This document shows positions 2,556-25,625 of a stretch of 28,112 nucleotides of DNA, in pieces (the stretch's first letter is position 1; every line of letters begins with the position of its first letter). Source of the stretch: Hyaloraphidium curvatum. Lineage: Eukaryota; Monoblepharomycota; Hyaloraphidiomycetes; Hyaloraphidiales; Hyaloraphidiaceae. Position numbers and translations under genes: made by a program. Location: the NCBI GenBank assembly GCA_025558095.1, contig JAIVFI010000049.1, positions 1 through 28,112 on the forward strand. Reading direction: 5' to 3'. The notes beneath the pieces were generated by a model. It saw nothing but the letters and a program-made list of their open reading frames with translations. It ran no database searches and was not told the DNA's origin.

Positions 2556-3076
2556 GTTTCCCCCGCCCGGCCAAATTGGGCCCTGCTGGCGAGGGACGGA
2601 GTTGATCAGTGGCTTCTTGGCTGGGCGATTCCCGGGGGTGATCAGGTTGCGGGGGGCCGGGGGGGGGGGGGGGGGCATGTGGGGTGTATTTGGATTGCTG
2701 CGGCCCGGACATAGATTGCTGCTGAATGCCAACGAGGAGGGATTGGGACGGGGAGGTCACGGGGGTGTATGGAAGGCGGCGTCCCAATCGAGGGTCGCCA
2801 AATTCAGGTTGCGGCAGAGGAGCTGCCGGACCGTGCCGCCGCTCGGACGCGGCGGGAAAATTAGGCCGAGTTGCAAGGCAGCATGCTGCAGGGGATGCAG
2901 TGTTCCCGGGGGTCCCGAATCGGGGTCGAGGGGATACCGCAGCTTTGGTTCGCGGGGACCCGGCGCGAACCAAGTCGAGGAATCTCCCCGACACCCCCAA
3001 ACACCGGGCAGTCCCCGTACGGAGGCGACAGCCGACCCCGCTCCGCCGCCTCGGGACCCCGCGCGCACGCGCCGCC
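2556..3076 (+). other. leader/intergenic region upstream of the F-box gene
   Basis: No separate gene is visible here. The frame of the downstream F-box gene stays open upstream to an ATG at 2726, so a longer protein with about 117 extra Arg/Gly/Pro-rich residues is formally possible. That part shows no domain and has weaker codon bias, so I treat it as 5' untranslated sequence. A 17-nt G run lies at 2659-2675. Confidence 0.5.
2659..2675 (+). repeat. poly-G run, 17 nt
   Basis: An uninterrupted run of 17 G in non-coding sequence between the SUR7-like gene and the F-box gene. On the + strand it could form a G-quadruplex; that is inference. Confidence 0.9.
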
Positions 3077-5629
3077 ATGCCCTTCGAAGGCGGCCCGTCG
3101 CGCGCCGCGCCCTCCGCCGGCCCGTCGCCCCCGCGCCCGCCGCCCCCGCTGCCCTCTCAGCCGCGCACGCCGCACGCCGCCGCCCCTCAGCCGCACCGGA
3201 AGCACCCGCGCGACTCGCCGGCCGCATTCTCGGCGCACGGCGCGCGCGGGGGCATGGCCGGGGCGGGCGGCCCGCAGCCGCACCCCGTGCCGGCCCCGCC
3301 CGACGCCGCCCCCGCTGCGCACGGCTCCCCCGCGGCAAAGGCAAACAAGAAGCGCCGTGCGGACCCGCCGCCGCTGCCCGTCGCCGCCCCGCGCGGCACG
3401 CACTGGCCCGCAATGCCCGCGCCCAGCCTCGCCGCGTTCCCGGCAAAGCACCCCTCGCCGCCCTCGCTCCACGCGCAGTCGCCCTTCGGCATGCAATTCG
3501 GGCACCCCGCCTCGCAAGGCGCCCGCATGCCCGGCCCGCCCTTCGGCCCGCCCGCCGCGCTCACCCCCGCGCTGCACCGCGCGCCCCTCGCCGACCCCGG
3601 CTCCCCGCACAAGCGGCACTCGCTGCCCGCGAACCCCTTCTCCGCGCACGCGGGGGGGCCCCGTCCGCACGCGGGCGCCTTCGCCTCGCCCCGCGCGGAC
3701 GTGCGCTTCCCGCAGGTCGGCGCCGGCGCGCACGGCGCGGCAGCCGGCAGCCCCGCCTTCTTCCGCGAGACCCCCGGCCGCCCGAAGCCGGTCCTCGACC
3801 AGGCGTCCCCCTTCTTTGCCCCCCCGTCGCATACCGCCCCCCCGCCCTCCCAGTTCCACCCCGCGTCGTCGCAGGCCGCGGCTTCTTCCCAGGCCACGCT
3901 CCGCGGGACCGGGAAGCAGGCGTCGACCTGGCCCACCCCCGCGCGGCCGACGAGCAACGTCATGAGCCCGCACGAGCAGCGGGACGCGATAATGAGCAGC
4001 CCCGAGGCCAGGGATGAGAAGGAGGTGCGTTCTCGCTTCCCGCGCACCGCAACGGCCAGCTCACCAGGCTCCGCGTTCCAGTTCTGGGCCTCGCCCCCGG
4101 CAAAGACCCCCCGGACCGAACGGCACCAGCTGCTCACGCCCGTCAAGAGCGGCAAGAAGCAGCCCGATGACTGGTGGCTCAAGTCGCCCTTCAAGTCCGA
4201 AAAGGGCGGCCGCCACGGAAAGTTCCACGAAAAGGTCGACTTCCGGAGCCCCGGCGGGTTCGGCAAGCTCGCGAGCAGGTTCGGGGACATACAGATGCTC
4301 GAGCACGATGCCGCGCCAACGGCGGCGGTGGCCGGGCCGGCGTCGCCCGCGCGGAGGGGCAACCTGCTCTTTTCGGACTTTCTCCCCGCGCCGAGCTCCC
4401 CCGCAAACCACGGCCAGCAAGCGCATCAGCCCGGCGACTTTGTCGCCCTGCTCATGTTCCCCGAGGCCGCTGCCCAGGACCAGCCCCTCCCCTTCGAGCT
4501 CCTCTGCCGCGTGCTCGCGTACCTCCCACCCCCCGACCTCGTGCGCTGCATGGTCCTCAGCAAGTCGTGGTGCAACGCCGCCGCCCCCGCGCTGTGGAGC
4601 GAGATTCGTGTGCGCAGCACGGTCGGCTGGTCCAAGATCTTTGGCGTGCTCAAGGGCAAGTCGACCCCCGCCTCGGACGCCTCGTTGTTCGAGGACCCCC
4701 CCGGCAGCCCGCGCCGCTCCTCCCGCCTTGCCTCTCCCGCGCGCCCCGCGATGCCCTTTGGCGCGCACCGCCGCTCCGGCCCCCGCGCTGCGGTGTACCG
4801 CTCCCTCGTCCGCGCATGGAGCTACTCCTCCATCGACGCCGACGGCAAGCGGCTGCCCACCACGCGGGGCGCCACCCTGTCCATCCTCCGCGGCCTGCTC
4901 ACCTCGCGGGTGTACATGCCGAACCTGCGGCGTGTGTCGCTCGCCGGGGGCGCGGAGTGGGCCGACGACGGGTTCCTGAGGATGCTGGCGGCGGGGTTCG
5001 GCGGGGTTCTGGAGCACCTCTCCCTGTCGGGGTGCAGGAACGTCACCCGCGCCGCGCTGCTCGCCAGCCTGCCCGAGTTCCGTGCGCTCAGATCGGTCAG
5101 GATCGAGTACTCCTCCGAGGTGGACGCCGCCGTCGTCTCGCGCATCGCCGCCCTCGGGGTGCCTTGCGTGGCGGTGGTGTACTGCGGCTCGCTCGACGAC
5201 GCCGCCGTCGCCCTCCTATCGGGGTGCAGGGAGCTCGAGGTGACTTTCTGCCCCGGAGTGACCTTTGGCGCCGGCATCCGCGGGCTGCTCGCGCGCGCCG
5301 AGGGGCTCGAGGTGCTCAGGGCGGGGTACATCACCTGGAGCGAGCCGCCCAGGGGGCAGACGGCCAGGTTCCCGCGGGGGATGAGGGAGCTGGATCTCTC
5401 GGGCTTGCCGGTGCTCGATGCGCGGGTGTCGCTACCGGCGTCGCTGCGGAGGCTGGTGCTGAGGGAGCTCCCGCAGGCCGCGACGGCGGCGGCGCTGGCG
5501 AGGCTGCTGAAACGGTGCACATCCTTGGAGGTGCTGGACGTGGGCGGGACGCCGTTCGCGCCGGGGGAGAGGGAGGAGGCGGGGCGGTGGTGCGCGGGGA
5601 GGGGGGTGCGGATGGTGGCGGACGACTGA
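3077..5629 (+). CDS. F-box and leucine-rich-repeat protein, 850 aa
   Basis: The start is the ATG in GCCGCCATGC, where strong coding bias begins. Residues 1-460 are a Pro/Ala/His-rich, probably disordered region with short conserved-looking basic blocks such as SPFKSEKGGRHGKF near residue 375. An F-box follows at about 471-512 (PLPFELLCRVLAYLPPPDLV, then SKSWCNAAAPALWSEI). Leucine-rich repeats run from about 614 to the C-terminus, with phrases like LRRVSLAGG, LEHLSLSGC and LRRLVLREL. F-box proteins of this build bind Skp1 through the F-box and substrates through the repeats within SCF ubiquitin ligases; that role is family knowledge, and no substrate can be named. No intron is needed: a GTGCGT...CAG pair at 4025-4067 would break the frame. 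It is convergent with the Zn2Cys6 gene downstream. Confidence 0.85.
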   Translation: MPFEGGPSRAAPSAGPSPPRPPPPLPSQPRTPHAAAPQPHRKHPRDSPAAFSAHGARGGMAGAGGPQPHPVPAPPDAAPAAHGSPAAKANKKRRADPPPLPVAAPRGTHWPAMPAPSLAAFPAKHPSPPSLHAQSPFGMQFGHPASQGARMPGPPFGPPAALTPALHRAPLADPGSPHKRHSLPANPFSAHAGGPRPHAGAFASPRADVRFPQVGAGAHGAAAGSPAFFRETPGRPKPVLDQASPFFAPPSHTAPPPSQFHPASSQAAASSQATLRGTGKQASTWPTPARPTSNVMSPHEQRDAIMSSPEARDEKEVRSRFPRTATASSPGSAFQFWASPPAKTPRTERHQLLTPVKSGKKQPDDWWLKSPFKSEKGGRHGKFHEKVDFRSPGGFGKLASRFGDIQMLEHDAAPTAAVAGPASPARRGNLLFSDFLPAPSSPANHGQQAHQPGDFVALLMFPEAAAQDQPLPFELLCRVLAYLPPPDLVRCMVLSKSWCNAAAPALWSEIRVRSTVGWSKIFGVLKGKSTPASDASLFEDPPGSPRRSSRLASPARPAMPFGAHRRSGPRAAVYRSLVRAWSYSSIDADGKRLPTTRGATLSILRGLLTSRVYMPNLRRVSLAGGAEWADDGFLRMLAAGFGGVLEHLSLSGCRNVTRAALLASLPEFRALRSVRIEYSSEVDAAVVSRIAALGVPCVAVVYCGSLDDAAVALLSGCRELEVTFCPGVTFGAGIRGLLARAEGLEVLRAGYITWSEPPRGQTARFPRGMRELDLSGLPVLDARVSLPASLRRLVLRELPQAATAAALARLLKRCTSLEVLDVGGTPFAPGEREEAGRWCAGRGVRMVADD

Positions 5630-7560: not shown

Positions 7561-7611
7561 TTTTGTCTGCCAACGAGCGTGTATGGTTCATTTCCGCAAG
7601 GAAGACAATAT

Positions 7612-7614
7612 ACA
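7612..7614 (+). other. left core/attachment site ACA
   Basis: The two copies align back to this ACA; the base before it differs (T at 7611, C at 13035). The same three bases occur at the middle junction (13036-13038) and right junction (18460-18462). They are the likely crossover core or target duplication of the recombinase. Confidence 0.55.
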
Positions 7615-7633
7615 GAGCATAATAATCACGGGC

Positions 7634-7700
7634 TTAGGCGGACGGTCAGGTCCGCGGCCAGGCTAACCGGGCGGGCGGCCAGCTCTAACGCGCTGACCGC
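7634..7700 (+). promoter_or_regulatory. left subterminal motif region of copy 1
   Basis: It holds TTAGGCGG followed by CGGTCAGG (7634-7650), GGCTAAC (7661-7667) and CTGACCGC (7693-7700). The same three short words recur at the right end of the element in direct or inverted form, so they may be recombinase-binding sites. The region also replaces the native upstream sequence of the Zn2Cys6 gene. Confidence 0.45.
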
Positions 7701-7897
7701 ACAAACGCTACCCCGAAGCAACCGCCCGAACGCGGGCAAACACCCCCGCGCGGGCCCCGCCGACAGCGCAGAGCCGGACAGCTGTCGCGCGCCGAGCTCC
7801 CCGGGCCGGCGCTTCGCGCCGCGGAGGCCCGGTGCGCGAGCGGCGCCGCATCGCCCGCGGGCAAACGCTGACAGGTCGCGCGCGCGGGTTCCCCCGC

Positions 7898-7963
7898 GGT
7901 CCTCCCGCGCCGCGGTCCTCCCGCGCCGCGGACCCCATAGATTCGGCGGACCCCATAGATTCG
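7898..7963 (+). repeat. two short tandem repeat pairs before the recombinase ATG
   Basis: A 16-bp unit (GGTCCTCCCGCGCCGC) is repeated exactly at 7898-7913 and 7914-7929. A second unit, GGACCCCATAGATTCG, lies at 7930-7945 and 7948-7963. The pair ends 3 bp before the ATG at 7967, so it forms the 5' leader of the gene. Confidence 0.85.
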
Positions 7964-7966
7964 CGC

Positions 7967-10900
7967 ATGGACACCCTCGCCGCCGCGGCGGCCGCGCTGG
8001 AGCCCGTCGCGGGCCCAGGTGCCGGCGGTGACGTCGACTCGACCCCCGCCCCGCGCGCCGCGCCCAAGCCGCGCAGGCCCGCCGCCGGAGCCGCCCCCGC
8101 CCGGGAGACGGGAGAAAGGAAGCGGAAGAGCGCGGGGGAGGGCGAGGGCGGCGCCGCTGCGGGCCCCGTCGCCTCCGCCGGCGGCCTGCAGGGCCCACCG
8201 AAGCGTCGGATCGCCGCGACCAAGCCCCCGTCGGCCAAGGCGCCCGGCGAACCGGGGCGCAAGCAGCCGGCAGGCATACGCAAGAAGGATCTGGCATCGG
8301 CCGGTGCTCCGGCAGCCCGCGGAGGTGCGGCGGGCGCCCCGGACGCGGCGGGCTCGGGAGGCAGCGGAGCGACGCGCAGGAGCAAGGTTGGCGACGCCGT
8401 CGTCCTGCACGAGGCGTCCCCGGGCGGGAATGATGCCGCTGCATCCGGTGCCGGGGCTCGCGCTCGCGGAGGAGGTGCTGGGGGCGACGGCGACGGCGCG
8501 CGGACCGGAGCTCCGGCTGGAGGGACGCCGGTCAAGGCAGGAACCCCTCCCGGCGGTCAGGAAGCGCAGAATCCTGGCGGCCAGGGATCAGATGGATCCG
8601 CTCCCGCGGCAACGGCTGCCTCGGTCCCTCCGGCGGAGGCTCCGGCTCGACCGACGGCGCGGAAGCCAAAGAGGAAGCGCGCCGCCGAAGACGACGGGGA
8701 TGCGGAGCGAGCCGGTGCCGAGCCCGGTGCAGACGGCGCGGACGGAGGCTTGGGCCCCGCCGAGCGCAGCGAGCTCGAGGAGGCGCTCCGTTCCGGCCCC
8801 GCCGTGTCGGACGACCTGGAGCGCCGGGCCGCCCTCGCCGCGGACGAGGCCTGGAAGAACAGGGAGAACAGCGGGACCACGGACAGCATCTACGCCTCGC
8901 ACTTTGAGCACTACAAGCTCTGGTGCGGCGGGAACGGCGTGGAGCCCTTCCCCGTCCTGCCGGCCAAGGCGGTGCTGTTCGCCGACTGGACGATGAAGCG
9001 GCCGCGCCTCAAGTCCGGCGTGAGGAAGGGCTCGAAGAAGGGGCGCACGGCGGACCAGGGCCCAGCAACCCTGGCGGCTTTGGAAGAGCTGTTCGTCACG
9101 GGCACTCGGATTGGGCCGGGTGTGGTCGGGGGCGTTCTCAACGCCCTCGAGTTCTTGCGCAAGGCCACGGCCATCGACTTCCCCGAGGCCGATTTCCCGC
9201 AGGCCCACCGCCCGCTCCGAAGCGATCCTCGGGTGACGCGGATCGAGAAGCTCTCGAAGCAGAACAGCGCGTCGCGGCAGGCAAACTCGGAGGAGATCAA
9301 GTCGGCCGGCGGCGCGTCCAAGACCTACAACCAGCAGCAGTACCGCGACGTCGCGGACTACCATCTGCTGCGAGCGGCGAACGGCAAGAAGGCTGCCGTC
9401 ACGCCGCAGGAGGCCGCCGCGGGGGTGCGCAACCGGGCACTGCACTTGATCTCGGGATCCTTGGCGGATCGGTCGTCGGACGTGCGCCCGACCGCGCTCT
9501 CGGACGTGCAGTTGCGCGAGGTGACTCTCCCAAAGACTGATCGCATTGTGGAGGTGGGCAGTCAATCTCCGTGGGTCGCGTGAAGCTTCCTAACGCTTGT
9601 TTGCCCGCCCAGCTCGGCGTCATCCTCGACAACAGCTCGAAAACAAACAAGGAAGGGGAGATCTTCGAGAAGGCGATGTTGCGGAACCCGGACGTCCGGA
9701 TCTGCCCCATCAACTCGCTCGCCCTGCACAGCTATGCAACGTACCACATCCTACAGGAGCGGCCCTCGGAGCTTGCCCCCGTTTTTGACGCCAAGAGCCC
9801 GCCGTACGGCCGCAGGGACTGGTACAAGATCCCGCTGTTTCCTGGGAACGGAGAGAAGGGGGAGATCGCGTACAAGAGTGGGTGGCCGCGGACTTCCCGC
9901 CTCTCCGTGAACTCACGGGCCCTTCTCCGCCGCAGCGCACTGGAAAGCAGTCACGGGAGCACACACGGCGCTCGGGCTCTTCGACGTCACGAAGAAGACC
10001 CACGCTGGGCGCTCGTACGCTCCGCGTCGCGCGCATGCCAAGGACTGTCCCGACGAGGACATGATGGCCCTGGGGCGGTGGAGCAACGGCAAGATCTTCC
10101 GGGAGCGATACTTGACGTCGATGCCGTGGCCGGCGGTCATCGCGACCGCCGACTCCGACGCCTCCAACCCGGCGGCCTACTACGTCCCGCGTGCGCAGCT
10201 CGGTGGGTGCCGTCGAATTGACACCTGGCGAGGCGCCACTGACGCAGCACGATCGATCGCGTCGATCCTGCAGAGCCGCCTGCGGAGCTCCAGCAACGCA
10301 TCATGCCTTGGGCAGACGCCTCGCTCGCTGCGTACAAGGAGCGCCTCGAACTGGACCCGTCCAAGTACCGCGACCCGTGCTGTGAGATGACCTGCAAGAG
10401 GTTCATTTTGGAGCGGAAGGTGCGGGGCGTCCCTTTTCCTCGGTCGTGCGTGCATGCGGGCGGTTGCTGACCACCCTGCTTTACTCTTGCAGATCCTCCT
10501 TCAAGACGCCCCGGAGCTCATCAACCATTTCGCCCCCGAGTTCAGCAAGGACGGCTACGATGCGCACGCGGACGACGGCCTCCCCTTCGTCTTCAAGACC
10601 GAGCTCTTCCTCTCCACCGAGTACCTGGTATGGCACCGCGAAGCGCTCGCCAAGATCGGCGAGCTGCGCGAGGCCGTGCGCCACGTGGCTGGGCCGAAGG
10701 AGTTTGTGAACGCATCGTGCCGCTCTTTCAGCAGCAGAACCTACTCTTCGGGCGCCTCGAGGAGGCTGTCTCGCGCAAGCCGGACGGGGCGTCGGCAGAC
10801 CTGCGCACCGCGGTGCGCGAGGACGTGCGCGAGGACATGACCGTCCTCTACAACACGCTCGTGGAGACCCTCGACTCCACCATGGAGCAGGCCATGGAGC

Positions 10901-11790
10901 ATCTGACCGAGACGGTCACGGACGTGGTGCAGGACGTGTTCCGCAAGGCTGTGCCTTCCTTGGCGGCGGCCCTGCAGGCCCAGGTGCCGGCCGTCTCGGC
11001 CGGAAGCCCGGGCGTCTCCACCTCCTCCCCTTCGGCCCCGGCCCTCGCCAATCCATCGGCAACGGAGCTCCCGGTGCTCCTTCCCCGCCCGCAGCCCGTT
11101 TCCCAGGACGGTGGCGCCGGCCTGGGTGTTCCCCGCCCCCTGCTTTGCTTCCCCCGGCCTCCGAGCTTTCCCCCCTCCGGAAGCCCGGTCTCCGCCCTTG
11201 CTCCGCAGCCCAGCACCTCTGCAGCTCCCTCAGAACCTGCCCAGGGACCGGCAGCTGCCCCCTCGGCCGGCGCTGCGGCGGCAACGGGCCTCGACGCCGC
11301 CCAGGCGGAGAAGCGGGCGCTGGAGGCGTCGCGGCTGCGGCAAAAGTACGGAGCCAAGCTCCAGGGCATCGACATTGTTTTCCACAACGGGCAGATGGTA
11401 CCGGCGTACGAGCTTGCCGCCGGGAAGCTGTCGATCGAGGACGCCTACAACGAGATCTACGTCGGGCGCGATGGCAAGATCTCGGTGGAGGAGCTGGACA
11501 GGGACTTTGGGCCCAAGTGGCGGCGGAACAACAACCGCATCCAAACCGAATACGGAAGGCGGAAAGCGATCAAGGAGGAGCTGGAGAAGATCCGGCGCGG
11601 CCCGCCCGCAAAGTCGCCGACGGCGGCGCTCCGGGCCCTCAAGGACAGGTTCACGGACAATGGGGCGGAGCTGACGGCGCGGCAGGTGAGCGACCGGCTC
11701 CAGAAGGCGGCGCGGGACGCCGCCAAGGCTGCGAAGGAGGCGGCGGGCGGGGCGGGGACGGGTGCGGCCGCGCAGGGGGCTGCGGCGTGA
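7967..11790 (+). CDS. Crypton-like tyrosine recombinase with GCR1_C-like domain, copy 1
   Basis: Six exons: 7967-9520, 9613-9877, 9936-10202, 10274-10419, 10493-10675 and 10732-11790 (introns 92, 58, 71, 73 and 56 nt, all GT-AG, phases consistent), encoding 1,157 aa. Residues 1-290 are disordered with Lys/Arg clusters such as RKPKRKR, a likely nuclear signal. A core-binding helical domain covers about 290-450. The catalytic domain holds R502 (in LADRSSDVR), K528 (SSKTN), H629-A-G-R632, W655 (GRWSN) and Y665 (ERYL); spacings 26, 101, 3, 23 and 10 resemble Cre. A GCR1_C/Ndc10-associated DNA-binding domain lies at about 1030-1095 (FGPKWRR, TEYGRRKAIKEELEKI). The protein should cut and rejoin element ends in the nucleus. 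The ATG at 7967 was preferred over an in-frame one at 7832 because it lies in GCGCATGG after the repeats. Confidence 0.85.
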
Positions 11791-12088
11791 CGGAAGGCGG
11801 GTCTTCTTGGGACATGGGGCAGTAGCGAGGTAGCGGAGGATCTTTTCGTTCTTTTCCCTGTGTTTGGTTCGGTTCAAGAATTGTAGGCCTCAGAAATCCG
11901 GTCAATCCAGTCCAGTCTGCCAGCGGGCGGCGCCCGCGGGCTCGCAAAACCTCCAGGAGGCCGGCAAGGCCGCCAGTCGCGGGCACCCTGCGCTGGCAAG
12001 AGCCGCGCTGGGCTCGTTGTCCGATTTTGCGGTCCGTTGCCGCGCTGTATCGCGGGGGTAGAGGGGTGGCGGCGAACCCACGGCACTG
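11791..12088 (+). other. 3' flank of the recombinase gene, copy 1
   Basis: No gene seen. A T-rich stretch (11840-11870, TTTTCGTTCTTTTCC) soon after the stop codon probably lies in the 3' untranslated region. Open frames in this GC-rich stretch on both strands have no recognisable domain. Confidence 0.5.
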
Positions 12089-12435
12089 CCCCCCCACATC
12101 CCCCTCCCGCCGGCGGGAACCCCCGGAAAATCCGAACGGCCAGCGAGTTCAATACCGCGGGCACCTCGAACGGGGATTTGTCCGGCCCTTCGACCCATCC
12201 ATCCCGTGTTTCGCCTCCGGAAGAACCGGCGCCCGACCGACGGTCCCCCACATCCCCCCTCCCGCCGGCGACAGCTCCCGGAAAACCCCAACGGCCAGCG
12301 AGCCCAATGCCGTGGGCACCTCGAACGGCGATTTGTCGAGGCTTCGACCCGTCCGCCCGGTGTTTCGCCTCGAAGAGCCGGCTTCCGCCAGACGGCCCTC
12401 CCCATCCCCCCTCCCGCCGCCCTCCGGTCCCTCTG
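12089..12435 (+). repeat. three degenerate ~153-bp direct repeats in the element tail, copy 1
   Basis: Units start near 12089, 12244 and 12396 (offsets 152-155 bp); the third is partial. Shared words include CCCCACATCC, CTCCCGCCGG, AACGGCCAGCGAG, GGGCACCTCGAACGG and GTGTTTCGCCTC. The units differ at many bases, so they are older than the duplication of the whole element. Confidence 0.75.
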
Positions 12436-12901
12436 GGAGCTGGTCCAAACCGGTGCAGCAACGGTGCCCGGCCTCGGCGCGACGCACGCCGGCCGGCGGA
12501 CCCGGCGGCGCCGCGGGAACACGGCACCTCCCGCGGGGGGTTCCCGCCCGCGGCCGCAATTGCGGGCTCCCCCACCGCCACGCCCGCCGCCGCGGGCCCG
12601 CACGCCGGGGCGCCGCACGGCCCGACCGGTGCCGGAGTCGCAGCGCCGCGCGGCGGCCCGGGGGGAGCGGCGGTGCGGCGCGCGGGAGCGCGGCCGGCTT
12701 CGCCCCTCCGCGGTCGGGGCCAAACACCGCCGCCGCCGCGGCCGCCGCCGACCACGGCGCCGCGCAGGCGGATCCCGCGGCCGCGCTGCAGGCCGGGCGG
12801 GCGGGGGGCGGCGGCCGTGGGGCAGCGGGGGAAAGGCGGTCCGGCTCCGGGGGAATGTTACACGCCCTGGGTGGGTTCGAGTCTGGCGGGGCCAATTAGA
12901 G
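12436..12901 (+). other. GC-rich non-coding tail of copy 1
   Basis: Long overlapping open frames occur here in several phases on both strands, a result of the extreme GC content; none has a domain or matches a gene in another way. I see no RNA gene. The word GGGAATGTTA at 12851-12860 foreshadows one arm of the palindrome at 12921-12946. Confidence 0.5.
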
Positions 12902-13024
12902 CTGACCGCGGAACTGGCCGGGGAATGTTATGCGCATAACATTCCCTGCGGTCAGGGCGGCTAACGATCGGGCGGTCAGGTCTAGTTCAATTAGGCGGCG
13001 GTCAGGGGTTTGGGGGCTGACCAC
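12902..13024 (+). promoter_or_regulatory. right subterminal motif cluster of copy 1
   Basis: The 8-mer GCGGTCAG or its reverse complement occurs at 12902-12909, 12948-12955, 12972-12979 and 12998-13005, with a one-base variant at 13017-13024. TTAGGCGG (12991-12998) and GGCTAAC (12959-12965) match words at the left end. The clustering suggests binding sites for the recombinase or its GCR1_C-like domain. Confidence 0.55.
12921..12946 (+). repeat. perfect 26-bp palindrome near the right end, copy 1
   Basis: GGGAATGTTATGC is followed directly by its exact reverse complement with no spacer. It is bracketed by inverted CTGACCGC (12902-12909) and GCGGTCAG (12948-12955). It lies about 90 bp from the right boundary and could be a dimer-binding site or a hairpin. 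Confidence 0.95.
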
Positions 13025-13035
13025 GGTGCACACAC

Positions 13036-13038
13036 ACA
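13036..13038 (+). other. internal ACA core at the junction of the two copies
   Basis: The right end of copy 1 (a short CA repeat) meets the left end of copy 2 (GAGCATAATAATC) with only one ACA between them, as expected for a joined attR-attL type junction of a tyrosine-recombinase element. Confidence 0.55.
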
Positions 13039-13321
13039 GAGCATAATAATCACGGGCTTAGGCGGACGGTCAGGTCCGCGGCCAGGCTAACCGGGCGGGC
13101 GGCCAGCTCTAACGCGCTGACCGCACAAACGCTACCCCGAAGCAACCGCCCGAACGCGGGCAAACACCCCCGCGCGGGCCCCGCCGACAGCGCAGAGCCG
13201 GACAGCTGTCGCGCGCCGAGCTCCCCGGGCCGGCGCTTCGCGCCGCGGAGGCCCGGTGCGCGAGCGGCGCCGCATCGCCCGCGGGCAAACGCTGACAGGT
13301 CGCGCGCGCGGGTTCCCCCGC

Positions 13322-13387
13322 GGTCCTCCCGCGCCGCGGTCCTCCCGCGCCGCGGACCCCATAGATTCGGCGGACCCCATAGATTCG
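13322..13387 (+). repeat. two short tandem repeat pairs before the recombinase ATG, copy 2
   Basis: Same two repeated units as at 7898-7963, here ending 3 bp before the ATG at 13391. Confidence 0.85.
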
Positions 13388-13390
13388 CGC

Positions 13391-16300
13391 ATGGACACCC
13401 TCGCCGCCGCGGCGGCCGCGCTGGAGCCCGTCGCGGGCCCAGGTGCCGGCGGTGACGTCGACTCGACCCCCGCCCCGCGCGCCGCGCCCAAGCCGCGCAG
13501 GCCCGCCGCCGGAGCCGCCCCCGCCCGGGAGACGGGAGAAAGGAAGCGGAAGAGCGCGGGGGAGGGCGAGGGCGGCGCCGCTGCGGGCCCCGTCGCCTCC
13601 GCCGGCGGCCTGCAGGGCCCACCGAAGCGTCGGATCGCCGCGACCAAGCCCCCGTCGGCCAAGGCGCCCGGCGAACCGGGGCGCAAGCAGCCGGCAGGCA
13701 TACGCAAGAAGGATCTGGCATCGGCCGGTGCTCCGGCAGCCCGCGGAGGTGCGGCGGGCGCCCCGGACGCGGCGGGCTCGGGAGGCAGCGGAGCGACGCG
13801 CAGGAGCAAGGTTGGCGACGCCGTCGTCCTGCACGAGGCGTCCCCGGGCGGGAATGATGCCGCTGCATCCGGTGCCGGGGCTCGCGCTCGCGGAGGAGGT
13901 GCTGGGGGCGACGGCGACGGCGCGCGGACCGGAGCTCCGGCTGGAGGGGCGCCGGTCAAGGCAGGAACCCCTCCCGGCGGTCAGGAAGCGCAGAATCCTG
14001 GCGGCCAGGGATCAGATGGATCCGCTCCCGCGGCAACGGCTGCCTCGGTCCCTCCGGCGGAGGCTCCGGCTCGACCGACGGCGCGGAAGCCAAAGAGGAA
14101 GCGCGCCGCCGAAGACGACGGGGATGCGGAGCGAGCCGGTGCCGAGCCCGGTGCAGACGGCGCGGACGGAGGCTTGGGCCCCGCCGAGCGCAGCGAGCTC
14201 GAGGAGGCGCTCCGTTCCGGCCCCGCCGTGTCGGACGACCTGGAGCGCCGGGCCGCCCTCGCCGCGGACGAGGCCTGGAAGAACAGGGAGAACAGCGGGA
14301 CCACGGACAGCATCTACGCCTCGCACTTTGAGCACTACAAGCTCTGGTGCGGCGGGAACGGCGTGGAGCCCTTCCCCGTCCTGCCGGCCAAGGCGGTGCT
14401 GTTCGCCGACTGGACGATGAAGCGGCCGCGCCTCAAGTCCGGCGTGAGGAAGGGCTCGAAGAAGGGGCGCACGGCGGACCAGGGCCCAGCAACCCTGGCG
14501 GCTTTGGAAGAGCTGTTCGTCACGGGCACTCGGATTGGGCCGGGTGTGGTCGGGGGCGTTCTCAACGCCCTCGAGTTCTTGCGCAAGGCCACGGCCATCG
14601 ACTTCCCCGAGGCCGATTTCCCGCAGGCCCACCGCCCGCTCCGAAGCGATCCTCGGGTGACGCGGATCGAGAAGCTCTCGAAGCAGAACAGCGCGTCGCG
14701 GCAGGCAAACTCGGAGGAGATCAAGTCGGCCGGCGGCGCGTCCAAGACCTACAACCAGCAGCAGTACCGCGACGTCGCGGACTACCATCTGCTGCGAGCG
14801 GCGAACGGCAAGAAGGCTGCCGTCACGCCGCAGGAGGCCGCCGCGGGGGTGCGCAACCGGGCACTGCACTTGATCTCGGGATCCTTGGCGGATCGGTCGT
14901 CGGACGTGCGCCCGACCGCGCTCTCGGACGTGCAGTTGCGCGAGGTGACTCTCCCAAAGACTGATCGCATTGTGGAGGTGGGCAGTCAATCTCCGTGGGT
15001 CGCGTGAAGCTTCCTAACGCTTGTTTGCCCGCCCAGCTCGGCGTCATCCTCGACAACAGCTCGAAAACAAACAAGGAAGGGGAGATCTTCGAGAAGGCGA
15101 TGTTGCGGAACCCGGACGTCCGGATCTGCCCCATCAACTCGCTCGCCCTGCACAGCTATGCAACGTACCACATCCTACAGGAGCGGCCCTCGGAGCTTGC
15201 CCCCGTTTTTGACGCCAAGAGCCCGCCGTACGGCCGCAGGGACTGGTACAAGATCCCGCTGTTTCCTGGGAACGGAGAGAAGGGGGAGATCGCGTACAAG
15301 AGTGGGTGGCCGCGGACTTCCCGCCTCTCCGTGAACTCACGGGCCCTTCTCCGCCGCAGCGCACTGGAAAGCAGTCACGGGAGCACACACGGCGCTCGGG
15401 CTCTTCGACGTCACGAAGAAGACCCACGCTGGGCGCTCGTACGCTCCGCGTCGCGCGCATGCCAAGGACTGTCCCGACGAGGACATGATGGCCCTGGGGC
15501 GGTGGAGCAACGGCAAGATCTTCCGGGAGCGATACTTGACGTCGATGCCGTGGCCGGCGGTCATCGCGACCGCCGACTCCGACGCCTCCAACCCGGCGGC
15601 CTACTACGTCCCGCGTGCGCAGCTCGGTGGGTGCCGTCGAATTGACACCTGGCGAGGCGCCACTGACGCAGCACGATCGATCGCGTCGATCCTGCAGAGC
15701 CGCCTGCGGAGCTCCAGCAACGCATCATGCCTTGGGCAGACGCCTCGCTCGCTGCGTACAAGGAGCGCCTCGAACTGGACCCGTCCAAGTACCGCGACCC
15801 GTGCTGTGAGATGACCTGCAAGAGGTTCATTTTGGAGCGGAAGGTGCGGGGCGTCCCTTTTCCTCGGTCGTGCGTGCATGCGGGCGGTTGCTGACCACCC
15901 TGCTTTACTCTTGCAGATCCTCCTTCAAGACGCCCCGGAGCTCATCAACCATTTCGCCCCCGAGTTCAGCAAGGACGGCTACGATGCGCACGCGGACGAC
16001 GGCCTCCCCTTCGTCTTCAAGACCGAGCTCTTCCTCTCCACCGAGTACCTGGTATGGCACCGCGAAGCGCTCGCCAAGATCGGCGAGCTGCGCGAGGCCG
16101 TGCGCCACGTGGCTGGGCCGAAGGAGTTTGTGAACGCATCGTGCCGCTCTTTCAGCAGCAGAACCTACTCTTCGGGCGCCTCGAGGAGGCTGTCTCGCGC
16201 AAGCCGGACGGGGCGTCGGCAGACCTGCGCACCGCGGTGCGCGAGGACGTGCGCGAGGACATGACCGTCCTCTACAACACGCTCGTGGAGACCCTCGACT

Positions 16301-17214
16301 CCACCATGGAGCAGGCCATGGAGCATCTGACCGAGACGGTCACGGACGTGGTGCAGGACGTGTTCCGCAAGGCTGTGCCTTCCTTGGCGGCGGCCCTGCA
16401 GGCCCAGGTGCCGGCCGTCTCGGCCGGAAGCCCGGGCGTCTCCACCTCCTCCCCTTCGGCCCCGGCCCTCGCCAATCCATCGGCAACGGAGCTCCCGGTG
16501 CTCCTTCCCCGCCCGCAGCCCGTTTCCCAGGACGGTGGCGCCGGCCTGGGTGTTCCCCGCCCCCTGCTTTGCTTCCCCCGGCCTCCGAGCTTTCCCCCCT
16601 CCGGAAGCCCGGTCTCCGCCCTTGCTCCGCAGCCCAGCACCTCTGCAGCTCCCTCAGAACCTGCCCAGGGACCGGCAGCTGCCCCCTCGGCCGGCGCTGC
16701 GGCGGCAACGGGCCTCGACGCCGCCCAGGCGGAGAAGCGGGCGCTGGAGGCGTCGCGGCTGCGGCAAAAGTACGGAGCCAAGCTCCAGGGCATCGACATT
16801 GTTTTCCACAACGGGCAGATGGTACCGGCGTACGAGCTTGCCGCCGGGAAGCTGTCGATCGAGGACGCCTACAACGAGATCTACGTCGGGCGCGATGGCA
16901 AGATCTCGGTGGAGGAGCTGGACAGGGACTTTGGGCCCAAGTGGCGGCGGAACAACAACCGCATCCAAACCGAATACGGAAGGCGGAAAGCGATCAAGGA
17001 GGAGCTGGAGAAGATCCGGCGCGGCCCGCCCGCAAAGTCGCCGACGGCGGCGCTCCGGGCCCTCAAGGACAGGTTCACGGACAATGGGGCGGAGCTGACG
17101 GCGCGGCAGGTGAGCGACCGGCTCCAGAAGGCGGCGCGGGACGCCGCCAAGGCTGCGAAGGAGGCGGCGGGCGGGGCGGGGACGGGTGCGGCCGCGCAGG
17201 GGGCTGCGGCGTGA
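13391..17214 (+). CDS. Crypton-like tyrosine recombinase with GCR1_C-like domain, copy 2
   Basis: Exons 13391-14944, 15037-15301, 15360-15626, 15698-15843, 15917-16099 and 16156-17214 encode 1,157 aa, identical to copy 1 except Thr187 to Ala in the disordered N-terminal region. The catalytic residues (R502, K528, H629, R632, W655, Y665) and the C-terminal GCR1_C-like domain are all intact, so both copies could make active protein. Splice sites are unchanged. Since the copies are adjacent, read-through or recombination between them could release one unit as a circle. The function is inferred from family and residue pattern. Confidence 0.85.
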
Positions 17215-17512
17215 CGGAAGGCGGGTCTTCTTGGGACATGGGGCAGTAGCGAGGTAGCGGAGGATCTTTTCGTTCTTTTCCCTGTGTTTGGTTCGGTTCA
17301 AGAATTGTAGGCCTCAGAAATCCGGTCAATCCAGTCCAGTCTGCCAGCGGGCGGCGCCCGCGGGCTCGCAAAACCTCCAGGAGGCCGGCAAGGCCGCCAG
17401 TCGCGGGCACCCTGCGCTGGCAAGAGCCGCGCTGGGCTCGTTGTCCGATTTTGCGGTCCGTTGCCGCGCTGTATCGCGGGGGTAGAGGGGTGGCGGCGAA
17501 CCCACGGCACTG
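17215..17512 (+). other. 3' flank of the recombinase gene, copy 2
   Basis: Identical to 11791-12088; no gene seen. Confidence 0.5.
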
Positions 17513-17859
17513 CCCCCCCACATCCCCCTCCCGCCGGCGGGAACCCCCGGAAAATCCGAACGGCCAGCGAGTTCAATACCGCGGGCACCTCGAACGGGGA
17601 TTTGTCCGGCCCTTCGACCCATCCATCCCGTGTTTCGCCTCCGGAAGAACCGGCGCCCGACCGACGGTCCCCCACATCCCCCCTCCCGCCGGCGACAGCT
17701 CCCGGAAAACCCCAACGGCCAGCGAGCCCAATGCCGTGGGCACCTCGAACGGCGATTTGTCGAGGCTTCGACCCGTCCGCCCGGTGTTTCGCCTCGAAGA
17801 GCCGGCTTCCGCCAGACGGCCCTCCCCATCCCCCCTCCCGCCGCCCTCCGGTCCCTCTG
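17513..17859 (+). repeat. three degenerate ~153-bp direct repeats in the element tail, copy 2
   Basis: Same repeats as at 12089-12435, with the same internal differences between units. Confidence 0.75.
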
Positions 17860-18325
17860 GGAGCTGGTCCAAACCGGTGCAGCAACGGTGCCCGGCCTCG
17901 GCGCGACGCACGCCGGCCGGCGGACCCGGCGGCGCCGCGGGAACACGGCACCTCCCGCGGGGGGTTCCCGCCCGCGGCCGCAATTGCGGGCTCCCCCACC
18001 GCCACGCCCGCCGCCGCGGGCCCGCACGCCGGGGCGCCGCACGGCCCGACCGGTGCCGGAGTCGCAGCGCCGCGCGGCGGCCCGGGGGGAGCGGCGGTGC
18101 GGCGCGCGGGAGCGCGGCCGGCTTCGCCCCTCCGCGGTCGGGGCCAAACACCGCCGCCGCCGCGGCCGCCGCCGACCACGGCGCCGCGCAGGCGGATCCC
18201 GCGGCCGCGCTGCAGGCCGGGCGGGCGGGGGGCGGCGGCCGTGGGGCAGCGGGGGAAAGGCGGTCCGGCTCCGGGGGAATGTTACACGCCCTGGGTGGGT
18301 TCGAGTCTGGCGGGGCCAATTAGAG
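17860..18325 (+). other. GC-rich non-coding tail of copy 2
   Basis: Counterpart of 12436-12901. Open frames on both strands have no recognisable domain; no RNA gene seen. Confidence 0.5.
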
Positions 18326-18448
18326 CTGACCGCGGAACTGGCCGGGGAATGTTATGCGCATAACATTCCCTGCGGTCAGGGCGGCTAACGATCGGGCGGT
18401 CAGGTCTAGTTCAATTAGGCGGCGGTCAGGGGTTTGGGGGCTGACCAC
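18326..18448 (+). promoter_or_regulatory. right subterminal motif cluster of copy 2
   Basis: Counterpart of 12902-13024, with the same four GCGGTCAG words and the variant near the boundary. Confidence 0.55.
18345..18370 (+). repeat. perfect 26-bp palindrome near the right end, copy 2
   Basis: Same palindrome as at 12921-12946, bracketed by CTGACCGC (18326-18333) and GCGGTCAG (18372-18379). Confidence 0.95.
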
Positions 18449-18459
18449 GGTGCACACAC

Positions 18460-18462
18460 ACA
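18460..18462 (+). other. right core/attachment site ACA
   Basis: Last three bases shared with the internal junction. Right of it the host flank (CGAAAAGCGAG) begins. Joining the left flank (GAAGACAATAT), one ACA and this flank gives the predicted empty site. Confidence 0.5.
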
Positions 18463-18819
18463 CGAAAAGCGAGTCGTTCATTTCGCCGCGCTCCCCTCGC
18501 CTCGACCCCCGAATCCCCGACGCGAAAAGGTAGCAATTGGTGGACGTTGGACCGGCCAGGGCGCAGAGGAACTATCCTCGTCCGTGGACACGAACTAAAG
18601 CCAGGAAATACGCGTGCGGATTCAAAGACTCACGAAGGACAGATCGACTCGGTCGTGACCGTTATTCCCGCCCATCTCCCAGGCCTTCACGCTGCGTGCA
18701 CACCATTTCGATAGCGAGCAACTAGACTTGTCGTGAAGGGGGTTCTCAATTGCATTGCCACTGACCCAAAATACACGGAGCTTCGGTCGGATTGCTCATC
18801 CGCAGTGAGGCACGTTTCG
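18463..18819. other. intergenic flank right of the element array
   Basis: Less GC-rich host sequence without a recognisable gene or RNA. It probably formed, with 7561-7611, the original intergenic region between the Zn2Cys6 gene and the 3' end of the CoA-transferase gene. Short open frames here have no domain. Confidence 0.5.
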
Positions 18820-19743
18820 CTACAGATTGGACCTCCTCCGCCGCGGGATTCCGACGGCTCCGACGCGAGCCAGCCCAACGATCTCCTCCGATGCGAACCC
18901 GAGCTCGCCCAACACCTCCTCCGTGTGCTCGCCCAACCCCGGCGCACGGGTCGGCGCCTTCCCCGTGCCCTCTTCCCCTTCGACGCGGAACGGGCACCGC
19001 ACGGTGCTCCCTTTCCCGTCCTCAAACTCGGCAAAGAACCCGCACTCCCTGGGCTGCGCGTCCGCCGCGACCGCCCCCGGTCCCGGCAGCCCCGGGCCCA
19101 ACGAAGGCACACCCGACGGCTCCCCGTTCAGGTCCCCGTGGAGCGGCGCAGCGGCGGCCCATAGCCCGTTGGCGAGCAGCGCGGTGCTCACGTGCGAACC
19201 CTTGCCCGTGCGCTCCCGGTTGTACAGGGCGAGCAGGACGCCGGCGACGAGGGAGACGGCGGTGGGGTGGTCGCCCGTGCCCGGTATCGGGGAGGTGCGC
19301 AGGATGGAAAGCATCCCCGAGCGGGCCCAGTAGGCTTGCGGGTCGAACCCTGGCGCGTCGGCCTCGGGTCCTCGCTCGCCGTACGCCGAGACCGACGCGT
19401 AGATGAGCCGCGGGTTGAGCGCCGACAGCGACGCGTAGTCGATCCCCATCCGTTCGCGCGACGAGGGCAGCGCGTTGGTCACGAACACGTCCGCGCCCTT
19501 CACGAGCCTGCGGAGCACCTCGCGCGCCTCGGGCCGCTTCAGGTCCAGCGAAATGCAGCGCTTGTTCCTGTTGGTCGTGTCGTACGGGTACGCCCCACTT
19601 ATGCCGAACGCGGCGCCGCGCCACGGGTCGCCCCAGGGGGGCTCGATGCGCACGACCGACGCGCCAAAGTCGGCGAGGAGCGTCGAGGTGGAGGGGCCCG
19701 CAATGAAGGTCGCGCAGTCCACGACGCGCAGGTGCGAGAGCAT
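18820..19743 (-). CDS. CaiB/BaiF family (class III) CoA-transferase, internally shortened
   Basis: The first ~200 residues match the class III CoA-transferase / alpha-methylacyl-CoA racemase fold: a start like LRVVDCATFIAGPSTSTLLADFGASVVRIE, then SLDLKRPEAREVLRRLVKGADVFVTN and GVLLALYNRERTGKGSHV. Asp158 (GTGDHPTA) lies at the position of the nucleophilic Asp of the family, ten residues before the GVLLAL helix. The C-terminal end is also typical (FFAEFEDGKG, then APGLGEHTEEVLGELGF). The protein has only 307 residues against roughly 380-440 usual: the segment between about residues 205 and 235 replaces some 100 residues that normally carry the second Rossmann-adjacent part. The frame is open without introns and extends upstream, but no nearer ATG exists. 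CoA transfer between acyl groups is the family role; activity of this shortened form is doubtful. Confidence 0.7.
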   Translation of the reverse strand: MLSHLRVVDCATFIAGPSTSTLLADFGASVVRIEPPWGDPWRGAAFGISGAYPYDTTNRNKRCISLDLKRPEAREVLRRLVKGADVFVTNALPSSRERMGIDYASLSALNPRLIYASVSAYGERGPEADAPGFDPQAYWARSGMLSILRTSPIPGTGDHPTAVSLVAGVLLALYNRERTGKGSHVSTALLANGLWAAAAPLHGDLNGEPSGVPSLGPGLPGPGAVAADAQPRECGFFAEFEDGKGSTVRCPFRVEGEEGTGKAPTRAPGLGEHTEEVLGELGFASEEIVGLARVGAVGIPRRRRSNL

Positions 19744-19953
19744 CGAGACGGAAGGCGACTGCAGATTCGTTGGAAGCTCAGAAACACGCGTTTCGCTCGC
19801 TTTCGGCGCGACGCGGCCGAGGTAGTGGACGATGCGTTTCGGGGGAGACAATGCACGAGTCGATCGCGAAAGCGCGATAGTGCCGGCCCCTCGTTCTCGA
19901 AGGAATCTCCCGTCTCCCTGGCCGCGTCCTTCCAGGAAACATCGGGCGAAAAG
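19744..19953. promoter_or_regulatory. shared divergent promoter region
   Basis: The CoA-transferase (minus) and the glutathione S-transferase (plus) start 210 bp apart, head to head, so this stretch must hold both promoters. I see no clear TATA box or other motif. Confidence 0.4.
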
Positions 19954-20915
19954 ATGGCCGCAGCCAACAATTTCGTCGGTGGCCCCGTCAGAGTGGCCTA
20001 CTGGTGCGCGTCGCGCCTTCCATGACGTGTCTTGTGACAGTCTCCCGTCCTCACCTCTGTTCCATTCCCTGCCAACCGTACCTTGCGGTCGCGCTTTCGC
20101 CTCCCGGCTACCACGGCGGAACGCAGGGACTATCCCATCGCCCGCGGGAACAATATCCGCCTCGTGCTCGCGGACCTCGGCGGACCTCGGAATCCCGTTC
20201 GAAGACGTCGTCCCGGGGACGATCGAGGAGTGGCCCGCGGAAAAGAAGCGCATCCTCGAAAACAAGATCAACCTCGGCACGCTGCCCTGGGTCGAGCTGC
20301 CCGATGGGAGGGTGATCGGGGAGCACCTCGCTTTTCTCCGGTACGTAGCGAGGAAGGCGGGCGGCGAACTGTACCCCGTTGAGGACCCCGAGAAAGCTTT
20401 GGTTGTGGATGAGGTAGCATTTCGCGTTCTTGACGGATCGGAGAACGGACCGCCGACCTCCACTGCAGATGCTGGACCTCAACTAGGACTGGAGGCTCAA
20501 CCGCCGCGAACGCCCTTTCGTTCTCCCTCATCTCCATCGGCTCCCTCCATGTCATCTCACCCCGTTCTCCTGCAGCTACGAGCGATCCCGCCTCGCCATC
20601 CTCGACGTGATCGAGCACCGCTACGCCACGAACCCGTTCCACGGCCCAGGCCCGATCACCATCGCGGACCACTTCACCTACCAGACCCTCGTCGAATGGC
20701 CTCCTGCTATACTTCCAGGGGCGGATGCGAGGTTTCCGGAGCTGGTCAAGCTCAGGGAGGCGATGAAGCAGAGGCCTGGGATCAAGGCGCTGGAGGAGAG
20801 CCAGAAGGGGAGGAGCGAGGCGGTGCCGGAGATGGTCGCCCAAAGCCAGCCTCATTTGGCGGAGATGTACCGCCGGGTGGTGGGCGAAGACGAAGTCAAG
20901 GCACGCGAAGAATAG
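19954..20915 (+). pseudogene. glutathione S-transferase-like gene broken by a 10-bp tandem duplication
   Basis: Exons read as 19954-20003, 20127-20413 and 20487-20915 (introns GTGCGC...GCAG and GTAGCA...CTAG). The N-terminal thioredoxin-like half shows VRVAYW, RGNNIRLVLADLG with a likely catalytic Tyr16, then PFEDVV, LPWVELPDGRVIGEHLAFLR and YVARKAGGELYP. The helical C-terminal half shows YERSRLAILDVIEHRY, PITIADHFTYQ and FPELVKLREAMKQRPGIKALEE. This is the order of sigma/alpha-type glutathione transferases, which conjugate glutathione to electrophiles in the cytosol. An exact 10-bp duplication at 20171-20190 shifts the frame in the middle of LADLG-IPFED; as it stands translation stops at about 20382. 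Ignoring one copy of the unit gives 756 nt, exactly 251 residues plus stop, which supports this reading. A sequencing artefact is possible. Confidence 0.72.
20171..20190 (+). repeat. exact 10-bp tandem duplication causing a frameshift
   Basis: CGGACCTCGG occurs twice in direct succession (20171-20180 and 20181-20190). It has no GT-AG signals, so it is not an intron. Confidence 0.95.
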
Positions 20916-23816: not shown

Positions 23817-25507
23817 TCACCCAAACAGGCACTGGTAGGTTGCCTCGTAAAACTCCAGCGACGCCTCCAGCTCCCGCACCTCCCTGCATACCATCTCCAG
23901 CGCCACGCATGCCCCGTAACTTCGCATCCTTCAGCGCCGCGCTAACCCCTGGCGTGGTCCACCTGGGGCCCACTACGGCGCAGCAATCGGCTCGAGACGT
24001 GGAAGTGCGCGGGCTGCCCCTCCTCACGGCGCGCCGAAACCCGCCGACGCCACGTCCTCCCCGCCATGGCCATGCACGCCGCGTCGAGGTGCACCTGCAG
24101 CCCCGGGTGTCCGACCCGCCGCACCAGGGACAGGGCGTGGGCCGAGGTGGTGGCAAAGTTGCACCCGTACTGCGGGGCGTTGGGTTCCAGGCACAGGGCG
24201 CAGCCCCTGGAATGGGCGTACTCGGCGAGCGGGCCGAAGAGGGCGCAGAAGATGCGGTCGGCTTCCTCGTGGGACATGCCGTCCGGGATCCGGCGGTTCT
24301 TGGGCGCGCCAAAGACGATGGGGAACGGGCCCGGGGAGGGGCGCCAGAGCTCGCGGAGGGAGGCGGCAAAGTCGACGACCACGCGGAGGTGCCGGGCGAG
24401 CCTGCCCCTCGCCTCCTCGGTGCCGAAGAGGACGAGGTCGGGTTTGCCGAAGAGGACGGCCTGGAGGGAGGAGATCCCGAGCCCGCGGGCCGCGAGGTCC
24501 GCCGCAAACCCCGCGACGAGCCCGTCGAGAACCCCGCCGGCGACGGCCCGCTCGATGGCGTCCCATGCAAAGAACCTGGTGGGGGCGACCTCAATGTACC
24601 GGTACCCGCGGGTCCTCAGCAGGGAAACCGCGGCGTCGTGGGACGGCTCGTCCCACGCGATGCACGAGACAGAGGTACGCCGGAACATGTTCCATTCCCC
24701 GAGGAACCGCGAAAAGGAGGCCAGGACTTGCGCGGCGGTGCAGATGTACGGCAGCCCCGCTGGGGCGCCGAACGCCTGACCGTGCTTCGTCAGGCAGTCG
24801 TAGCGCAGCGGCGGGCCGCCGTGGCCGACGTCGCGGGGCTCGACGTCTCCCGCCAGGAGGCCGGCATCCGAGATGAGCCGGATCAGTTCGGCGGTGGGCA
24901 CGGGTTCGGGGAACAGGTTGGCCTCGCGGAGCCCGAGCTCCAGGGCGCGCTGCATGTCCGCGGACAGCCGCGAAACGTCGTACCATTGGAACGCCGAGTT
25001 CATGTTGATGGCGGGGAGGTTGTTGCCCACTAGCAGGTCGTAGACGTAGTTCTTCTTAAGGTGGATGCCGAACAGCGCGGGGAGGCGGAGGACCAGGTGG
25101 TCGGGGAACCGGTCCCGCACGAAGCGCTCGAGCAGCGCGCGGTGCCTGCCGTAGGGGTGGAGGTCGGGCATGTCGGCGGCTCCACCCAGGCCGTCTTCGT
25201 CCCTTCGGCCGTCCGCCGGGTTGTAGACGTCGATGGTGGAAATGAGCACGAAGCGGTCGCATTCGACGCCCGCCAGCACGGCCTCCAGCTTCCGCAGGTT
25301 CGCCAGGTCGGCGTCCGGGTCCTTGTTTGCCAGCCATTTGGCGGCCGGGAGGGCGGCGCACACGACGGTGGAGAATCGGCGGCCGCGGGCGGCGCCGGCG
25401 TCGGTCGAGCGGAACGCGTGGTCGAACCTGAGTGCGCGCCGCAGAGACGTGCCGACGAACCCGGTGCTGCCGAAAAGCGCCGAGTTTGGCGGCGGGAAGC
25501 TCTCCAT
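23817..25507 (-). CDS. NAD-dependent epimerase/dehydratase fused to sugar-isomerase TIM barrel; C-terminal frame changes
   Basis: ATG 25507 starts an extended short-chain dehydrogenase: GSTGFVG at residues 13-19 (nucleotide-binding GxxGxxG), LISTIDVYNP around 88-97, PYGRHR at 118-123 with the active-site Tyr119, and LVLRLPALFGIHLKKNYVYDLL. From about residue 277 a second domain of the AP-endonuclease-2/xylose-isomerase type follows (VSCIAWDE, GYRYIEVAPTRFF, LCLEPNAPQYGCNF, LQVHLDAACM, AHFHVSS), with metal-ligand-like Glu, Asp and His. Such pairs act on nucleotide sugars or keto-sugars. The main frame stops at 23942, but two +1 changes at about 23840-23945 reach a family-like end (VALEMVCREVRELEASLEFY) stopping at 23817-23819. 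Without them the protein is 521 residues and lacks the last helix. It is convergent with the FAD gene and divergent from the exostosin. Confidence 0.75.
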
Positions 25508-25625
25508 CAGGGGAGTCAAGGCGCTTTTTGATTGGGGATCGATGATGATGGTGCCCTTATTCTACTAGCTTCATTGGGGCCCCACCTGGGACACCGACGG
25601 ACGACTTGTGGGACGCCACTCCCCG
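25508..25625. promoter_or_regulatory. shared divergent promoter of epimerase and exostosin genes
   Basis: Only 118 bp separate the two start codons, so the promoters must overlap, which makes joint regulation plausible. No clear motif seen. Confidence 0.4.

Follow-up and report, generated by a model that had tools for sequence, protein, structure and literature searches.

A probable tandem pair of CryptonF-type DNA transposons in Hyaloraphidium curvatum, with ends and a target site that suggest excision as a circle and integration

The stretch of DNA analysed here (the window) is the entire contig C49, 28,112 bases long, and the genome searched comprises 31.9 Mb in 55 contigs. In a repeat comparison with a period of 5424, two head-to-tail units of 5,424 bp were found to fill positions 7612-18462, with one mismatch between them; three shared bases extend the second unit from 18459 to 18462. 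Each unit carries a tyrosine recombinase (YR) gene followed by a 3' non-coding part with subrepeats (Table 1). The host genes flanking the array, at 2726-5629, 18820-20463 (minus strand), 23942-25519 (minus strand) and 25608-26933, encode an F-box protein, a CoA-transferase family III protein, a xylose isomerase-like TIM barrel (AP_endonuc_2) protein and an exostosin GT47, respectively.

Table 1. Coordinates of the transposon array and its parts in the window. A slash marks a junction.
Feature	Position	Strand	Remarks
Left half of target, AAGACAATATACA	7602-7614	+	core ACA at 7612-7614; 12 genomic occurrences
Crypton copy 1	7612-13035	+	5,424 bp; repeat of period 5424; boundaries from comparison with unrelated insertion sites
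Recombinase exon 1	7967-9553	+	basic, Ala/Gly-rich N-terminus; presumed core-binding region; catalytic R502
Recombinase exon 2	9613-9877	+	catalytic K539
Recombinase exon 3	9936-10202	+	H640-x-x-R643, W666, Y676
Recombinase exon 4	10274-10419	+	four-intron gene model
Recombinase exon 5	10493-11790	+	holds GCR1_C (about 11431-11601); 1-nt deletion near 10713
Segment formerly read as intron 5	10676-10731	+	coding in relatives
Three diverged subrepeats of ~150 bp	12085-12431; again 17509-17855	+	3' non-coding part of the element
Copy-copy junction, GGTGC(AC)4A/GAGC	13025-13042	+	same at two C21 junctions; equals the expected circle junction
Crypton copy 2	13036-18459	+	5,424 bp; 1 mismatch to copy 1
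Recombinase gene, copy 2	13391-17214	+	structure and deletion as in copy 1 (coordinates + 5424)
Right core ACA and right half of target, CGAAAAGCGA	18460-18472	+	junction comparison

The genome-wide copy search revealed one further full-length copy on contig C22 (99.7% identical), and on contig C2 a full-length copy (98.6% identical) together with a truncated one (95%). Contig C21 holds three tandem copies, of which the middle one is visibly unpolished, with many 1-nt indels. C49 aligned end to end with C21:148966-182461, and the flanks differed by two substitutions and otherwise by small indels only. Because of this whole-length alignment and the near-identical flanks, the two contigs represent one locus, with two and three copies. 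The copy count proposed in the earlier note came to about six. Near-identical copies are indeed dispersed (98.6-99.98% identical across three unrelated sites), but the C49 array is redundant with that on C21. No relatives of the element were found in the viral and prokaryote contigs searched.

The ends of the element were then compared between sites. The left flanks read AAGACAATATACA/GAGC on C49 and C21, AAGACAATATACAC/AGAGC on C22 and CTGATTTACA/GAAC on C2, and the right flanks continue with CGAAAAGCGA, GACTCTTCC and TATGTTTT, respectively. ACA or ACAC is common to both element ends and the target at the three sites, giving an identical core of 3-4 bp, the exact length of which is blurred by the (AC)n run at the ends. 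No terminal inverted repeats (TIRs) were found at the element ends, only the short ACA/ACAC direct repeats. In longer form, the junction between tandem copies reads GGTGC(AC)4A/GAGCATAATAATC, also written GGTGC(AC)4A/GAGCATAA. A single exchange of a circle with the target inside the shared ACA or ACAC accounts for each flank. An enrichment of GGTCAG in the ends was also considered and set aside as weak: seven occurrences were counted there, yet random internal pairs gave 7-8 in 10 of 200 draws.

The target itself recurs in the genome. Of its 12 occurrences, AAGACAATATACA is intact and followed by CGA in nine and interrupted by the element in three (two loci and the redundant contig). Two of the three insertion sites fall in the same target, ATATACAC or AAGACAATATACAC, where a LINE-like repeat has its 3' end; random insertion would hardly strike AAGACAATATACA at two sites out of three. 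The possibility that AAGACAATATACA is part of the element was rejected, since it is absent from the tandem junctions and present at nine element-free sites. At seven of these nine vacant sites a clear dispersed repeat starts, while the remaining two have just 25 and 33 bp of it. A search with the dispersed repeat gave 35 matches, most of them anchored at the AAGACAATATACA end and cut off at variable lengths; short direct repeats bracket three of the copies (GAAGCTTCTG, CTGGATGC and GGTTCG), and the occupied C49 site is likewise bracketed by GTTCATTTC. The repeat resembles the 3' terminus of a LINE truncated at its 5' side, but this label is provisional, as the pieces that were read yielded no reverse transcriptase (RT) domain. 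Judged from these sites, ATATACA(C) seems the most apt description of the target, and the ends of the dispersed repeat often provide it; ATATACA is rare, occurring at 3e-5 per position over 115 kb of sequence from this genome.

The comparison of junctions suggests that the element most likely leaves as a circle by way of its ACA core and integrates at ATATACA(C). The recombinase would cut and rejoin both element ends within the shared ACA(C) core, the resulting circle would carry the same junction as that between the tandem copies, and it would integrate via a single strand exchange at a target with the same core, preferably ATATACA(C). The tandem array might have formed when a circle integrated at the end of a resident copy, or by unequal crossing-over. 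That the array arose and varies between two and three copies through ordinary unequal homologous recombination or assembly, and not through the recombinase, the element being otherwise a Crypton, comes close to an even prospect. The array copies are almost identical and carry a frameshift, and all of C49 is duplicated on C21, where the middle copy has the 1-nt indels typical of unpolished assembly. The tandem arrangement is seen on two contigs with the same junction, which is the predicted circle junction, but homologous recombination would keep this junction too. However the array was formed, recent mobility of the family is likely, because of the identity of the copies at three unrelated sites and the two versus three tandem copies in the two assemblies of one locus. 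Of the earlier suggestion of an active family, this recent mobility fits, but the array copies look truncated.

The structure of the recombinase gene was best described by four introns. The gene starts at 7967 on the plus strand, with introns at 9554-9612, 9878-9935, 10203-10273 and 10420-10492, and this model gives open frames of 1,187 aa in the single copy on C22 and 1,182 aa in that on C2. Coding constraint was evident between the C22 copy and the diverged C2 copy: codon position 3 takes 80 of the 154 exonic substitutions (p 1.5e-6), and of the 134 codons with a single change, 74 changed synonymously where 26% would be expected (p 6e-13). A sister family, referred to below as family B, has introns 1-3 at matching positions. 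An alternative intron 3 (41 nt, 10207-10247) was rejected, because it would put an indel of 5 nt that distinguishes the copies inside an exon. A longer intron 1 was rejected as well, since it lowers the NDC10_II score (58.7 versus 64.3 bits with the 59-nt intron) and does not fit the place of this intron in family B.

Two deletions are common to the array copies: a harmless one of 5 nt within intron 3 and, in the stretch that separates the YR domain from GCR1_C, one of 1 nt near 10713. Because of the latter, the frame breaks ahead of GCR1_C, and in the assembled sequence of the array copies the catalytic domain is followed by about 45 frame-shifted residues, with GCR1_C out of frame. On this assembly the earlier description of both copies as unbroken is wrong, and the array copies would probably need a full-length enzyme supplied in trans. 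It is unlikely, though worth keeping in view, that the 1-nt deletion is an assembly error and that the array copies are intact. Single-base indels do occur elsewhere on the same contigs, and reads from identical copies polish poorly. However, the base agrees in five array copies over two contigs, the position lies outside any homopolymer, and the array copies also share the 5-nt deletion in intron 3, which is atypical for sequencing error.

The earlier note had spliced out five introns to obtain a protein of 1,157 aa. Its fifth intron exactly spans the frameshift, has GT..AG bounds and measures 56 nt, so that its removal restores the frame of the array copies. That this intron is real, and that the array copies yield a full-length protein despite the deletion, is nevertheless very improbable. 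The corresponding segment in the other copies is 57 nt long and in frame, and none of its 57 positions differ from the diverged C2 copy (~5% diverged overall); the same comparison finds 5-14% of sites changed in introns 1, 2 and 4, and 2 of 76 in intron 3. The segment also aligns as coding with the sister family (PKDYVDAMVPRFQQ versus PKEFVNAIVPLFQQ). These results led us to retain the four-intron model.

A Pfam profile check showed the NDC10_II and GCR1_C domains to be significant and in the expected order. On the first splice, with five introns, the protein matched Pfam NDC10_II (E 4.3e-17, 62.6 bits) and then GCR1_C (E 1.4e-8), both above the curated cut-offs, and the C-terminal likeness to GCR1_C pointed out before is thereby confirmed. 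GCR1_C may be the DNA-binding domain of the recombinase. In the four-intron model, the catalytic residues are R502, K539, H640, R643, W666 and Y676; family B, despite a YR of only 36% identity, shares every one of them. The residues R, K, H-x-x-R, W and Y named in the earlier note are therefore present and in order, but its K528 is K539 and the later residues are renumbered. The order is that of Cre of phage P1, in which the R-K, R-W and W-Y spacings are 28, 23 and 9. The corresponding values here are 37, 23 and 10; the last two stand as first given, whereas the Cre-like R-K spacing of 26 becomes 37 because intron 1 has 59 nt. The context of R502, R-x-x-D/N, resembles R173-x-x-E176 of Cre. Unlike the element, Cre has no GCR1_C, and no sequence match to it was found; a sequence search of the PDB matched no chain, apart from one chance match.

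Taken together, the feature is very probably two copies in tandem of one CryptonF-type DNA transposon; the recombinase gene has four short introns, its product reaches 1,187 aa in one of the single copies outside the array, and the junctions suggest a circle-and-integrate mechanism. The assignment is based on domain order, ends and host, set beside CryptonF by its published description. Pfam searches of the recombinase and ten other open reading frames of the element revealed no RT and no DDE transposase, and none of the ten matched a Pfam family. A fungal host is indicated by 96 Zn2Cys6 domain matches in the genome, where no LHC (chlorophyll-binding) proteins were matched; an algal host was rejected for want of LHC, and a bicosoecid (Cafeteria) host on account of the Zn2Cys6 domains. 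The tandem Crypton-like element first proposed from the sequence is thus supported by the exact head-to-tail repeat, the profile matches, the junctions, the dispersed near-identical copies and the lack of RT and TIRs; its setting in a GC-rich host, as a Crypton with a tyrosine recombinase and GCR1_C, is borne out by the same profile matches, junctions and copies.

Fungal Cryptons (CryptonF) have GCR1_C after the YR, and both domains also occur in Crypton-derived yeast genes (Kojima and Jurka 2011, PMC3212892). CryptonF elements, such as Crypton-Cn1 of Cryptococcus neoformans and its relatives, likewise encode one protein with YR and then GCR1_C, lack TIRs, have short terminal direct repeats and live in fungi, with oomycetes as further hosts of the group; these repeats are 6 bp in most members and were 4 or 6 bp in the first Cryptons (PMC3212892). 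The present element differs in its apparent ACA(C) core of 3-4 bp, its long Ala/Gly-rich N-terminus, the tandem array and the apparent ATATACA target. With the DIRS/Ngaro YR retrotransposons it has the tyrosine recombinase in common, but no reverse transcriptase or RNase H was found in the element. The Crypton-derived yeast genes Cbf2/Ndc10, Gcr1, Msn1 and Hot1 contain NDC10_II-like and/or GCR1_C domains, as the element does, but are host genes that have lost the catalytic site. A domesticated gene of this kind, in place of a transposon, is hardly credible here: NDC10_II is the best Pfam match, but every catalytic residue is kept and the several dispersed near-identical copies with defined ends refute this reading. 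As far as tested, the transposon represents a well-preserved CryptonF-type family that is new as a family.

Family B, found at C22:416000-425999 (L016), also has a YR-GCR1_C gene and is partly degenerate, with a stop and a frameshift near GCR1_C. It sits between two inverted LINE pieces (L016 about 1100-1475 and 7732-8807), and its left flank gives a weak antisense RVT_1 match. Its right end on C22 reads ...TTTAAAACACACA/TATG. At C9:336628-341290 (L035:2129-6791), an inverted head-to-head pair of 2.33-kb right halves of family B was found; the right end is fixed because these halves stop at the same ...AAAACACACA, with differing DNA beyond. We infer a left end of CTATATACA/GTATAAATGG, which would make the element 6,146 bp long, in a single copy where the choice was guided by the motif itself. 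A Resolvase (serine recombinase) gene (Pfam E 2.9e-14) occupies L016:5486-6394 (C22:421485-422393), downstream of GCR1_C and short of the right end. A rearranged copy on C2 (L011), 88-98% identical by segment, has the same arrangement, with the Resolvase at L011:5809-6431 (C2:639808-640430). On C9 the Resolvase half stands without the YR half, and it could therefore have been a separate unit that joined a Crypton.

No serine recombinase was found in the window's own Crypton family, and a limited search of the literature gave no report of one inside a Crypton. Bacterial-type serine recombinases are known in fungi from transferred IS607-like genes in a yeast (PMC2715888), and some Fanzor2 elements of eukaryotes and viruses carry serine recombinases (PMC3627910). 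A separate dispersed repeat of ~6 kb (C4:369142-374018, L034:643-5519; also L036, L037 and C34:542991-543419), three compared copies of which are 97-99.7% identical, has a Resolvase gene 3' of a long open reading frame without a Pfam match, which may be a transposase; the repeat could be a DNA transposon that encodes a resolvase of its own. With regard to family B, we tentatively suggest that the Cryptons here include a lineage pairing two unrelated site-specific recombinases in one element, on the grounds that the ~6.1-kb copy on C22 and the rearranged copy on C2 have the Resolvase downstream of YR-GCR1_C and inside ACA-bounded ends, and that both families share an ATATACA-type target.

Crypton movement has been understood largely through analogy with other tyrosine recombinases. 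In this fungus the circle-and-integrate model can be put to a direct test, given near-identical copies whose ends are clear, the circle-like tandem junction and a short target that recurs at nine or more vacant positions in the genome. Family B, with its two recombinases and possibly a new variant, offers the more unusual lead: if the Resolvase gene serves the element, this would be an unusual two-recombinase transposon.
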